A stretch of DNA of 43,551 bases. It comes from an uncultured bacterium. GTDB taxonomy: Bacteria; Bacillota_I; Bacilli_A; RFN20; CAG-826. Location of the stretch: NCBI GenBank assembly GCA_949299165.1, contig CASFZJ010000010.1, positions 1 through 43,551 on the forward strand, read 5' to 3'. The notes below the pieces were generated by a model. It had not been told where the DNA came from and did not search any database. It saw only the letters and a list, made by a program, of their open reading frames with translations. The position numbers were made by a program, and so were the translations under genes. This document shows, in pieces, positions 2,428 to 22,740 of this stretch (positions are counted from its first letter, which is position 1; each line of letters begins with the position of its first letter).

Positions 2428-4956
2428 ATGAAAGCATTTGAATTTGATTCACTCCGCTTTGAATTATTAGATGATGAAATTATTCACATTGAAAAAGCAA
2501 CTTCTGCAGGGTTTTCAAACAAAAATACCTTTTTTGTTGCAGAAAAAGAAGCATTAAACCGCACAGAATTTTTTGTTCAAGATAATGGTGATTATTTTAC
2601 TTTATTTATGAACGAATATTATCTTGTTGTTTTTAAAAGAGATGGTTTAAATGATTTAAAAGTTTACGATAAATATGGCTCAATTCTTTATGAATATAAG
2701 AAAATTTTAAATTTAGGTGAACTCCCTTCGCCTAGTAAAACGCCTGCAATTTTTGCTCTTTTTGATAATCCAAGAGTCACTTTGCCAGAACATGGATACT
2801 CAGCTGCCTCTTTTGAAAATCACGAAAAATTAGTCGTTGAAAAAGATGTTGATGATGCTTATTTATTACTTGCAAAAGGTCAAGCCGACAAATTAAGAGA
2901 GCTTTATGTCAAACTTACCGGCAGAAGCGAACTTGTTAGATTCAAAACATTAGGTTTTTGGCACTCAAGATATTATAAATATAATGAAGAAAGTGCCAAA
3001 AAGATGATTTTAGATCATGAAGAGCACAATATTCCTCTTGATAATATGGTTATCGACACTGATTGGCGTAAAGCTAACGATATTGGAATTGGTTATGATA
3101 TTGATACAACTTTATTCCCTGATATGGCGAGATTTTTCAAATTTGCTCATAAGGAAGATGTCGAAATCATGTTTAATGACCATCCAGAGCCAGTAAAAGA
3201 TGCCAAAAATTGTTTTGATGAAAAAGAAGTTAAATTTAGAGAAGAAAAATTAACTTATTTACTTTCTTTAGGCTTAGATTATTGGTGGTACGATAGAAAC
3301 TGGATTACATGTTTAAAATCAATTGATAAAAATATTAATCCTGAAACAATGGGACAATATTTATTTACAGATATCACTAAACATTATTTCCAAAAAGTAG
3401 CTAAAAATGATTTTGTTTATAAACGTGCACTTGTAATGTCTAATGTTAATGACATTAAAAACGGATTTTATGACAAAATTTATGATAGTGCATCACACCG
3501 TTATCCATATCAATGGACAGGCGACATTCAATCTTCTTTAGATTCTCTTGGAAGAGAAATTTATAACTTAATTAAAGGATGTGAAAACGAAATCACTTAT
3601 ATAAATAGTGATATTGGCGGGCACGTTGGCAATCCAAATAAAGAAGAATATATCCGTTGGATGCAATTTGCGACATTTAGTCCTATTTTCAGAGTTCACG
3701 CCACAAATTGCGTAATCCGTTATAGAGAACCTTGGAATTATGACGAAGAAACATTAGATATTTCTAGAAAATATCTTAATATGAGATATCGCCTTATTCC
3801 GGCACTTTATACAAAATCTTTCGATAACTATCAAACAGGCGAACCACTTTTTAAATCTTTAGAATATAACTATAAAGACGAAGAAGTAAAAGGAAATAAA
3901 GATAGTTATTTATTCTCAAATGCAATTTTAATCTCACCTTTCTCCTTACCAAAATCTACCAAAATTAAAAAATCGAATTTTGTTGGAAAAATTAAAGCAA
4001 GTTATTTCACAAATACTAAATTCGAAGGAAAACCATTCGCTATAAAAGAAATTGATAAACTTGATTTCTTCTATAAAGAAGATCAAGCTCCAGTTAATGG
4101 AATGAGTGGAATCAATTGGAGTGCAATTTTTGAATTTAAACTTAAATTTAAAGAGGATGGCATATTAATTTCTAATAGTGATGATGGCGCTTCAGTTTAT
4201 ATTGATGGAAAACTTATTCATGAAGATAAATCATCTCATGCGCTTTCTCCAGCAAACCTTGGTTTAGTTAAAAAAGATGAAGTTCATGACATTAAAGTTG
4301 AATACATTCAATACACTGGTGGAGCACAATTCTTCCTTTCTTTGATTAAAAAAGATGATGCACTTAAGAAGGTTTTCTTACCACGTGAAAAATGGGTCGA
4401 TGTCTTCACGGGCCAAAAATATGATGGTGGCTCATTTGTTGAGAAATCTGATGAAAACCTTGCAGAACTGCCACTTTTTGTTAGAGAAGGCACAATTTTA
4501 CCACTCGTAAAAGAAAGAAATAGAGCTTCAAAATTAGACTATTCTAAACTAACTTTAGATTTCTATCCTTCATTTATAAATGAAGATCATCAATCACTTT
4601 ATGAAGATGATAAGGTGACAACAGCTTATCAATTTGGAACATATCGCAAGACATATTTTGATACACGTTTTGATTCGGAACAAAACGCAATTATTGTTCA
4701 TATTTCTAAAGCAATTGGTGAATATAAAGACAAAATTTCTAAGAGAAATATTATCTTTAAATATAATATGATTGAAGGTTTTGAAGGAGTAAAAGAAGTC
4801 TTTGTAAATGATCAAAAAGTCGATTTCAAACTTAACAAAGCTGATTTTAAACTTATGCCATTTAGTTATGGTGAAAAATCTAATGTTTTCGGCACATTAT
4901 CATTTAAGTTTGAAGAAAAATTAGACGAAGAATATTTCATCAGATTCCAATTTTAA
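2428..4956 (+). CDS. Glycoside hydrolase family 31 (alpha-glucosidase/alpha-xylosidase type) with PA14 insertion
   Basis: An 842-residue GH31 retaining alpha-glycosidase. The N-terminal beta domain (about 1-165) is followed by the catalytic barrel. The nucleophile is inferred as Asp289 in WWYDRNW and the acid/base as Asp366 in WTGDIQSS; SDIGGH and FRVHATN are also typical. Between the barrel and the distal beta domain, at about residues 515-648, sits a PA14-like module with the signature SDDGASVYIDGKL. PA14 modules bind sugars or shape the active site in some GH31 enzymes. There is no signal peptide, so the enzyme is cytoplasmic and presumably acts on imported oligosaccharides. No sugar transporter is adjacent. 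A GAGGT ribosome binding site precedes the ATG. The exact substrate cannot be read from sequence. Confidence 0.88.
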   Translation: MKAFEFDSLRFELLDDEIIHIEKATSAGFSNKNTFFVAEKEALNRTEFFVQDNGDYFTLFMNEYYLVVFKRDGLNDLKVYDKYGSILYEYKKILNLGELPSPSKTPAIFALFDNPRVTLPEHGYSAASFENHEKLVVEKDVDDAYLLLAKGQADKLRELYVKLTGRSELVRFKTLGFWHSRYYKYNEESAKKMILDHEEHNIPLDNMVIDTDWRKANDIGIGYDIDTTLFPDMARFFKFAHKEDVEIMFNDHPEPVKDAKNCFDEKEVKFREEKLTYLLSLGLDYWWYDRNWITCLKSIDKNINPETMGQYLFTDITKHYFQKVAKNDFVYKRALVMSNVNDIKNGFYDKIYDSASHRYPYQWTGDIQSSLDSLGREIYNLIKGCENEITYINSDIGGHVGNPNKEEYIRWMQFATFSPIFRVHATNCVIRYREPWNYDEETLDISRKYLNMRYRLIPALYTKSFDNYQTGEPLFKSLEYNYKDEEVKGNKDSYLFSNAILISPFSLPKSTKIKKSNFVGKIKASYFTNTKFEGKPFAIKEIDKLDFFYKEDQAPVNGMSGINWSAIFEFKLKFKEDGILISNSDDGASVYIDGKLIHEDKSSHALSPANLGLVKKDEVHDIKVEYIQYTGGAQFFLSLIKKDDALKKVFLPREKWVDVFTGQKYDGGSFVEKSDENLAELPLFVREGTILPLVKERNRASKLDYSKLTLDFYPSFINEDHQSLYEDDKVTTAYQFGTYRKTYFDTRFDSEQNAIIVHISKAIGEYKDKISKRNIIFKYNMIEGFEGVKEVFVNDQKVDFKLNKADFKLMPFSYGEKSNVFGTLSFKFEEKLDEEYFIRFQF

Positions 4957-4957
4957 T

Positions 4958-4986
4958 TTGAAGTCCTAATCTTAATAGTATATATT
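4958..4986 (+). promoter_or_regulatory. metK promoter
   Basis: TTGAAG, a 17-bp spacer, then TATATT. The predicted start at about 4993 coincides with the first paired base of the riboswitch, so the RNA begins with the P1 stem. Confidence 0.7.
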
Positions 4987-4992
4987 ATTAAC

Positions 4993-5140
4993 ACTTATCA
5001 AGAATTGCACACAGATTAAGTGAAAAAGTGCAATAGCAACTCTCAAAAATGAGTAAGTGCTTCTTAATAGCAAGGTTCCACAAGCCTTGAGCGATGAGTA
5101 AGGGATTAAATATGACTCCCACAAGTTGTGGGAGTTTTTT
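4993..5140 (+). promoter_or_regulatory. SAM-clan (SAM-I-like) riboswitch with intrinsic terminator, upstream of metK
   Basis: The leader folds like an S-box aptamer. P1 is CTTATC (4994-4999) with GATGAG (5093-5098). P2 is ATTGCAC (5004-5010) with GTGCAAT (5028-5034). P3 is ACTC (5039-5042) with GAGT (5051-5054). P4 is CAAGG (5071-5075) with CCTTG (5085-5089). ATTAAG in the P2 loop (5015-5020) can pair with CTTAAT in J3/4 (5063-5068), the SAM-I pseudoknot. The conserved core strings CTTATCAAGA, AGCAAC and AGTGCT...AGCAAGG are recognisable. The terminator is ACTCCCAC (5115-5122) with GTGGGAGT (5128-5135) plus a T run. The usual kink-turn and upper P2 stem appear to be missing, so this is a variant. 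SAM binding should favour termination and lower MetK synthesis. Confidence 0.82.
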
Positions 5141-5164
5141 GTTAGATAAATTCGGAGGTTTTTT

Positions 5165-6328
5165 ATGGAAGAGAAAATTTTATTTACTAGTGAAAGCGTT
5201 TCAGAAGGCCATCCTGACAAAGTTTGCGATCAAATTTCTGATGCAATTTTGGATGCTGTTTTAAAAGAAGACAAAGATAGTTTTGTTGCTTGTGAATGCT
5301 TTGCAACTACAGATTTTTTGTTGATTGGTGGAGAAATCACTACAAAAGCTGAAATTGATTATGAAAAAGTTGCTAGAGAAGTAATAAAAGATATTGGCTA
5401 CGAAAAAGATGAACTTGGCTTTAATTATAAAACTGTTAAGATTTTTAACGCGATTAAGACTCAATCTCCTGATATTAGACAAGGTGTTTATAATGATGAT
5501 CCTTTAATGTATGGTGCCGGCGACCAAGGAATTATGTTTGGTTATGCATCAAATGAAAGTGAAGGTTATATGCCTTTAGCAATTTGTATTGCTCACAAAC
5601 TTGTTCGTATTGCTACACAAAATAGAAAATCAGGCGCATTTAAGTGGGCACGACCAGATATGAAAAGTGAGGTAACTATTGATTATTCTGGTAAATCTCC
5701 TAGAATTAAAACAATTTTAATGAGTGTTCAACATGATCCAGATTATGATGAAATAGCTTTTAAAAACTATATAAAAGAAGAAATTATGAAAAAAGTTGCT
5801 GAATCTTTTGGCCTAAATTCAGATTTTGAAGTTTTAATTAATCCTACTGGAAGATTTGTTTTAGGCGGGCCTGCTGGAGATACTGGTTTAACGGGTAGAA
5901 AAATCATTGTCGATACATATGGCGGTAGTGCAAGACATGGAGGAGGCGCTTTTAGTGGAAAAGATCCTTCAAAAGTTGATAGAAGTGCTGCTTATCTTGC
6001 AAGATATATTGCAAAAAATCTAGTTGCAGCTGGTGTTGCTGATAGATTAGAAGTTCAATTATCATATGCTATTGGAAGGGCTGAACCACTTTCTGTCTCG
6101 GTTTCAACTTTTAAAACTTCACACTATGATGATGAAACAATCTTATCAATTATTAGAAAAGTATTCGATTGTAGACCAGGTGCAATTATCAAAAATTTCT
6201 CTTTGAAAGAGCCAACATTTAGATATAGAGACATTTCAAATTATGGGCATTTCGGTAGACCTGACTTAGATTTGCCTTGGGAAAAATTAGACAAAGTTGA
6301 AGAAATAAAATCGCTTTTAAATAAATAA
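5165..6328 (+). CDS. metK: S-adenosylmethionine synthetase
   Basis: Makes SAM from methionine and ATP in the cytoplasm. The 387-residue length is normal for the family. The N-terminal signature GHPDK (residues 15-19), the ATP-binding GAGDQG (117-122) and the phosphate loop GGGAFSGKD are all intact, and the C terminus is complete. The gene is monocistronic: a riboswitch/terminator precedes it and a terminator follows. TCGGAGG, 8-9 bases before the ATG, is the ribosome binding site. Control by a SAM-responsive leader is expected product feedback. Confidence 0.98.
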   Translation: MEEKILFTSESVSEGHPDKVCDQISDAILDAVLKEDKDSFVACECFATTDFLLIGGEITTKAEIDYEKVAREVIKDIGYEKDELGFNYKTVKIFNAIKTQSPDIRQGVYNDDPLMYGAGDQGIMFGYASNESEGYMPLAICIAHKLVRIATQNRKSGAFKWARPDMKSEVTIDYSGKSPRIKTILMSVQHDPDYDEIAFKNYIKEEIMKKVAESFGLNSDFEVLINPTGRFVLGGPAGDTGLTGRKIIVDTYGGSARHGGGAFSGKDPSKVDRSAAYLARYIAKNLVAAGVADRLEVQLSYAIGRAEPLSVSVSTFKTSHYDDETILSIIRKVFDCRPGAIIKNFSLKEPTFRYRDISNYGHFGRPDLDLPWEKLDKVEEIKSLLNK

Positions 6329-22631: not shown

Positions 22632-22647
22632 TTAAATTAGTTTAGTA

Positions 22648-22740
22648 GGCAAAATATACCAAAGACAGTAACGGACGAAAGTCTTAATTATGTTACCGAG
22701 GTTAAACTTAATATAAGATCCTCATGTATATTTGGCCTCG
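22648..22740 (+). promoter_or_regulatory. L10 leader (rplJ-rplL autoregulatory RNA)
   Basis: Matches the Firmicutes L10(L12)4-binding leader: ACCAAAGAC near the 5' end, GTAAC pairing with GTTAC, CCGAGGTTAA, GATCCTCAT and TTGGCCTCG. The closing stem pairs GGC-AAAATATAC (22648-22659) with GTATATTTGGCC (22726-22737). CCTC at 22720 and 22736 could alternatively pair with GAGG of the rplJ ribosome binding site (22753-22756), suggesting translation-level control. No T-tract terminator is seen in the leader. Confidence 0.8.

Follow-up and report, generated by a model that had tools for sequence, protein, structure and literature searches.

The closest described systems to the RNA analysed here are the SAM-I (S-box, RF00162), SAM-IV (RF00634) and SAM-I/IV (RF01725) riboswitches, with the architectures of the last two taken as described in PMC6890682 and PMC2864571. 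In SAM-I, the kink-turn is a conserved element (PMC2258182), and A62 of the J3/4 junction docks on the P2b helix (PMC3764141). Taking the kink-turn out of SAM-I by engineering eliminated SAM binding, and the motif has been called essential (PMC3651934), so a kink-free form would not be expected to work unless compensated. Some SAM-I kink-turn mutants do still fold in context (PMC3651934), and other kinds of bend have been described for engineered SAM-I as well as for the lysine riboswitch (PMC4316175). The lysine riboswitch of Thermotoga maritima, in which a natural kink-turn is replaced by another bend (PMC4316175), provides a precedent, although it belongs to another class and keeps its kinked helix, whereas the RNA described here has lost the whole upper helix. 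The literature searched contained no account of a natural SAM-I that lacks a kink-turn.

The 43,551-nt stretch of DNA analysed here, which we call the window, contains a metK leader that very probably acts in cis as a riboswitch of SAM-I descent, repressing metK by premature termination at high SAM, with a longer pseudoknot in place of P2b and the kink-turn. Like SAM-I, it has the SAM-binding core, the P1-P4 order, the two-nucleotide bulge in P3, the pseudoknot between L2 and J3/4, a metK target and a terminator platform. It differs from SAM-I in lacking the kink-turn, P2b and A61-A62 docking, in its longer pseudoknot, in falling below the Rfam cut-off and in having a P4 loop that pairs with the terminator. 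With SAM-I/IV it shares a P2 without an internal loop, the binding core and P4, but it has PK-1 and lacks PK-2. With SAM-IV it shares the binding core, PK-1 and the absence of a standard kink-turn, whereas SAM-IV has P5, PK-2, a P2 split into P2a and P2b, and no P4. The features of the locus are as follows.

4958..4986, + strand: putative sigma-70-type promoter, TTGAAG-17-TATATT, 9/12 matches, expected start ~4993
4993..5099, + strand: SAM-clan aptamer without kink-turn; covariance model of the family leaders (R1), 104 bits, E 2e-23
4993-4999/5093-5099, + strand: P1, covaries
5004..5034, + strand: P2 (5004-5010/5028-5034, ATTGCAC/GTGCAAT), one unbroken helix
5011-5027, + strand: P2 loop of 17 nt without P2b or kink-turn, from homologue comparison
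5015..5020, + strand: 5′ strand of PK-1, ATTAAG, covaries with J3/4
5021..5027, + strand: conserved 7-nt linker TGAAAAA from PK-1 to P2, from homologue comparison
5035..5061, + strand: P3, with SAM-contact GCAAC / GUGC and a 2-nt UA bulge on its 3′ side; contact nucleotides in 54/54
5063..5068, + strand: 3′ strand of PK-1, CTTAAT, in J3/4, covaries with the P2 loop
5071..5089, + strand: P4 hairpin, whose apical CCACAA (5078-5083) complements terminator TTGTGG (5126-5131)
5114..5141, + strand: intrinsic terminator, stem-loop 5114-5136 followed by a U tract; chance expectation 0.0
5154..5158, + strand: ribosome-binding site GGAGG, from sequence
5165..6328, + strand: metK, S-adenosylmethionine synthase, 387 aa, ATG at 5165

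The leader fills the gap between an upstream ORF, which ends at 4956, and metK, and its predicted fold of -42.2 kcal/mol (z = -4.2) was not equalled in stability by any of 200 shuffles. On its own the promoter-like match would be weak evidence, as chance should yield 0.9 such matches over the region, but its position just 5′ of P1 fits.

In a 191-nt Rfam scan, the SAM model (RF00162) matched 4992-5100 over its full length with 37.7 bits (E 1.9e-7), short of the 44.4 bits set as its gathering score. Up to E = 10, the scan listed neither SAM-IV nor SAM-I/IV, and no overlapping clan match was reported as omitted. Scans of 1.1 kb or more, of the whole window or of the whole genome lose the element to speed filters, so Rfam counts from wide scans are lower bounds. 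Such a search placed SAM above the cut-off in 36 of the 146 genomes of the bacterial family, with about seven of those being the metK leader by coordinates, itself a lower bound as the search also lost the window's own match. Elsewhere in the window, positions 22641-22739 hold an ordinary ribosomal protein L10 leader (Rfam RF00557, 53.9 bits).

We gathered metK leaders from the genus, family and order of the window's genome. Nearly all of those from the same GTDB family share one form, running from TTATCAAGA through a P2 of 6-8 bp, a loop with (U/C)GAAAAA at its end and GCAAC to a P3 with the UA bulge, AGTGC, J3/4, P4 and (A/G)CGAT. We built a covariance model, R1, from 54 of these family leaders. 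It found a single copy, 5′ of metK, in each of 129 of the family's 146 genomes (Bacilli), including 96 of the 100 of good quality; scores ranged from 32.7 to 109 bits, all but one above 52, and one genome had two near-identical contigs that matched. The canonical SAM-I riboswitches of Ruminococcus and Oscillospiraceae metK scored 23-25 bits with R1. At its cut-off, Rfam passes over the window's riboswitch and recognizes few of the metK relatives, leaving the family's main SAM feedback loop largely unannotated.

All five helices covary among the 54 leaders: 94.0% of cells are paired, a share that drops to 75.2% in shuffles and to 34-42% when the controls are slid, and double changes number 412 versus 134 in shuffles, with none of 500 shuffles as good; these permutation tests ignore shared ancestry, whereas the slid controls retain it. 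By helix, paired cells reach 95% in P1, 97% in each of P2, P3 and P4, and 83% in the pseudoknot, and double changes occur at 28 of 35 pairs, the pseudoknot included. In the window, the pseudoknot is a 6-bp complementarity, ATTAAG/CTTAAT, between the P2 loop (5015-5020) and J3/4 (5063-5068). At least four contiguous Watson-Crick pairs are found there in 53 of 55 leaders, and the length is mostly 5-7 bp compared with about 4 bp in SAM-I. The 54 leaders hold 35 different pseudoknot helices of at least 4 bp. Both strands change together even inside the window's genus, which has, besides the window's own pair, ATTAGG/CCTAAT, GTTAAG/CTTAAC, ACTAAG/CTTAGT and AATAGG/CCTATT. Native pairs score 12.9, and exchanging J3/4 among the leaders brings this down to 8.7 +/- 0.3.

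P2 itself is paired in 96.7% of cells and shows double changes at all 7 of its pairs across the 54 leaders. A P2b helix nested in its loop could be drawn for 20 of 56 relatives, which is chance level (22.1 +/- 2.1 in shuffled loops). P2b is present in 20 of 20 SAM RNAs from the family that do carry a kink-turn; this set is the comparison used, the f8 and class controls having been partly spoiled by regular-expression starts placed too early. J3/4 A61-A62 is found in 0 of 55 kink-turn-free leaders and in 19 of 19 kink-turn-bearing RNAs, suggesting that the P2b helix and its docking partner were lost together. The linker has G in 50 of 54 leaders and A in 42-52 of 54 at each of the next five positions; its UGAA matches the bulged-strand side of the SAM-I kink-turn without a GA partner strand, and L1, which would supply that strand, varies between leaders, is A-rich for the most part and is often no longer than 2-4 nt. 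No kink-turn between P2a and P2b was found in the window or its homologues. The initial annotation had read this leader as a SAM-clan element of metK that keeps P1-P4, lacks the kink-turn and upper P2 and has its pseudoknot rewritten by compensatory change. The helices and terminator lie where it placed them and every helix covaries, the P2 loop and J3/4 strongly so across 54 leaders; a kink-turn is missing from the Rfam alignment and the homologues alike, and P2b stays at chance in the 55-56 relatives compared.

Homology and the metK target point to SAM as the ligand. At the SAM-I contact positions given in PMC3764141, U7, G11, A12, G43, C44, A45, A46, C47, G56, U57, G58, C59 and A87 are present in 54 of 54 leaders, and A6 and U88 in 53; the SAM-I contact nucleotides of P1, J1/2 and P3 are in place, as are the P1-P4 order and PK-1. 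SAM-I variants that bind spermidine exist, some of them 5′ of metK and one upstream of that gene in Oceanobacillus damuensis (PMC10853860), but a comparable change of ligand here is very unlikely. Those variants are altered at SAM-contact positions (PMC10853860), whereas the contact set of the window's family is essentially invariant across the 54 leaders, and the downstream gene is metK throughout the family. An ordinary SAM-I whose kink-turn and P2b have diverged too far in sequence to be recognized also seems unlikely. The UGAA kept in the 3′ linker, the class relatives in which weakened kink-turns accompany a retained P2b, and the SAM-I mutants that fold in context would all suit it, but P2b pairs at chance level, the adenines that dock on P2b are gone, the would-be GA strand is variable and short, and the P2 pairs lead directly into the pseudoknot strand.

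Membership of SAM-IV or SAM-I/IV is the sort of assignment we would be very surprised to see hold, even though SAM-I/IV likewise has no P2 internal loop (PMC2864571) and SAM-IV combines PK-1 with the absence of a standard kink-turn (PMC6890682). P4 is present and covaries, and PK-1 is present, unlike in SAM-I/IV. Pairing of the P3 loop with sequence 3′ of P1, as in PK-2, scored 6.55 versus 6.65 when permuted, 372 of 500 permutations being as high, and the P3 loop measures 3-4 nt in 41 of 55 leaders. The SAM-IV combination of PK-2 with P5 and no P4 was not found, and the SAM-I/IV features of PK-2 presence and PK-1 absence were not found either, leaving the P2 without an internal loop. Because PK-2 is absent, the aptamer is neither SAM-IV nor SAM-I/IV. 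The initial annotation had suggested a minimal or intermediate form related to SAM-I, SAM-I/IV or SAM-IV and had proposed scanning the leader with the Rfam models; SAM alone matched, below threshold and in an alignment without a kink-turn, and of the suggested affinities the kinship to SAM-I stands while a form intermediate towards SAM-IV or SAM-I/IV does not, given the missing PK-2 and the retained P4. On sequence comparison, the metK aptamer is better described as a lineage-specific SAM-I derivative. The class members closest to it are built like SAM-I, with P2b and a kink-turn that is either canonical or weakened. The descent of the metK aptamer from a SAM-I riboswitch is almost certain.

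How this derivative might control metK is suggested by its terminator. For 54 of 55 leaders, a script located a terminator hairpin with a T-run in the stretch separating P1 from metK, a few picks being imprecise (for example, G041 and G029). Pairing with the terminator exceeds all 500 permutations both for the P4 loop (13.0 versus 10.6 +/- 0.3) and for the sequence after P1 (12.7 versus 10.6 +/- 0.3). The partners of the P4 apical loop are the loop and 3′ arm of the terminator, as CCACAA/TTGTGG in the window and as TCCCATAA/TTATGGGA, CCCAGAA/TTCTGGG or CCCACC/GGTGGG elsewhere. The leader sequence that begins with the 3′ strand of P1 pairs with the terminator 5′ arm and loop over 9-11 bp in five leaders (G034, G051, G053, G055 and G063), and the window's own version is short (GGGA/TCCC). 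The two competing pairings are nested and able to form together, and we infer that they would constitute an antiterminator at low SAM.

In the mechanism we propose, P2 is a single 7-bp helix whose loop pairs straight to J3/4 through the lengthened pseudoknot, with the conserved 7-nt A-rich linker (U/C-GAAAAA) standing in for the bend; in three dimensions, the extended pseudoknot probably fills the site of the P2b-plus-pseudoknot stack. The SAM-bound aptamer would hold P1, leaving the terminator free to form and metK repressed. At low SAM, the post-P1 strand would pair with the terminator 5′ arm and block termination, assisted in most relatives by the apical loop of P4, which would pair with the loop and 3′ arm of the terminator. 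Neither strand of P1 is overlapped by the P4-loop pairing, and there is no evident route by which SAM would disfavour it. The direction of switching is the one that homology and the metK target would predict.

The family probably represents a fourth natural SAM-clan architecture, fixed among its members, in which the kink-turn and P2b have given way to a longer loop-to-junction pseudoknot and an A-rich linker, the terminator is a direct target of the P4 loop, and one genus has gone further by losing P4 to leave a minimal P1-P2-P3-pseudoknot aptamer. In that genus (g33), the metK leaders (G057, L217, L218, L219 and L169) lack P2b, the kink-turn and P4, with P1, P2, P3 and the pseudoknot remaining. 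The P1 3′ strand of g33 pairs with the terminator (GATGAGAG/CTCTCATC). Kink-turn-bearing SAM-I-like RNAs, without P4, occur elsewhere in the family's genomes, with GA-type kink-turn bases in 18 of 19. In more distant members of the class, among them those at metK of Thomasclavelia and Stoquefichus, P2b is retained beside a weakened kink-turn, and other class members keep near-canonical kink-turns. Because these family RNAs and class relatives retain P2b, the kink-turn-free state looks derived within the lineage. The family would then document an evolutionary swap of a kink-turn for a longer pseudoknot, offering more than 100 natural kink-turn-free SAM-I relatives, some sharing genomes with kink-turn-bearing SAM aptamers, as ready constructs for testing what the kink-turn is for.

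Several further observations concern relatives of these RNAs. A second SAM-I-like type (L237-L256, and also at metK in L136 and L162 of order families f3/f5) has the form CCATAAAGAG...GCAACC...GGTGCTAA(A/T)GCTTG...ATGATGGG, with a standard kink-turn, a CAAGC/GCTTG pseudoknot and an altered J1/2 but without P4. Terminators accompany it, and the ORFs downstream are mostly uncharacterised, several of them encoding small proteins that resemble one another by eye (motif ~GVGLV). Class relatives L197-L206 and L032-L034 have P1 U8-A86 (TTATT...ACAATAAG) in place of the C8-G86 pair of the window's family, which is a clean compensatory exchange beside the SAM site. In order families f3 and f5, metK mostly has no recognizable upstream SAM riboswitch, and SAM feedback at metK there appears to be either lost or of another kind. 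Finally, the window's genome encodes two extra MetK paralogues, about 50% identical, on contigs C12 (L258) and C19 (L257), each directly 3′ of a DNA-methyltransferase-like gene (by eye) and with no SAM riboswitch visible upstream; these are possibly mobile-element SAM synthases that operate outside the host feedback loop.
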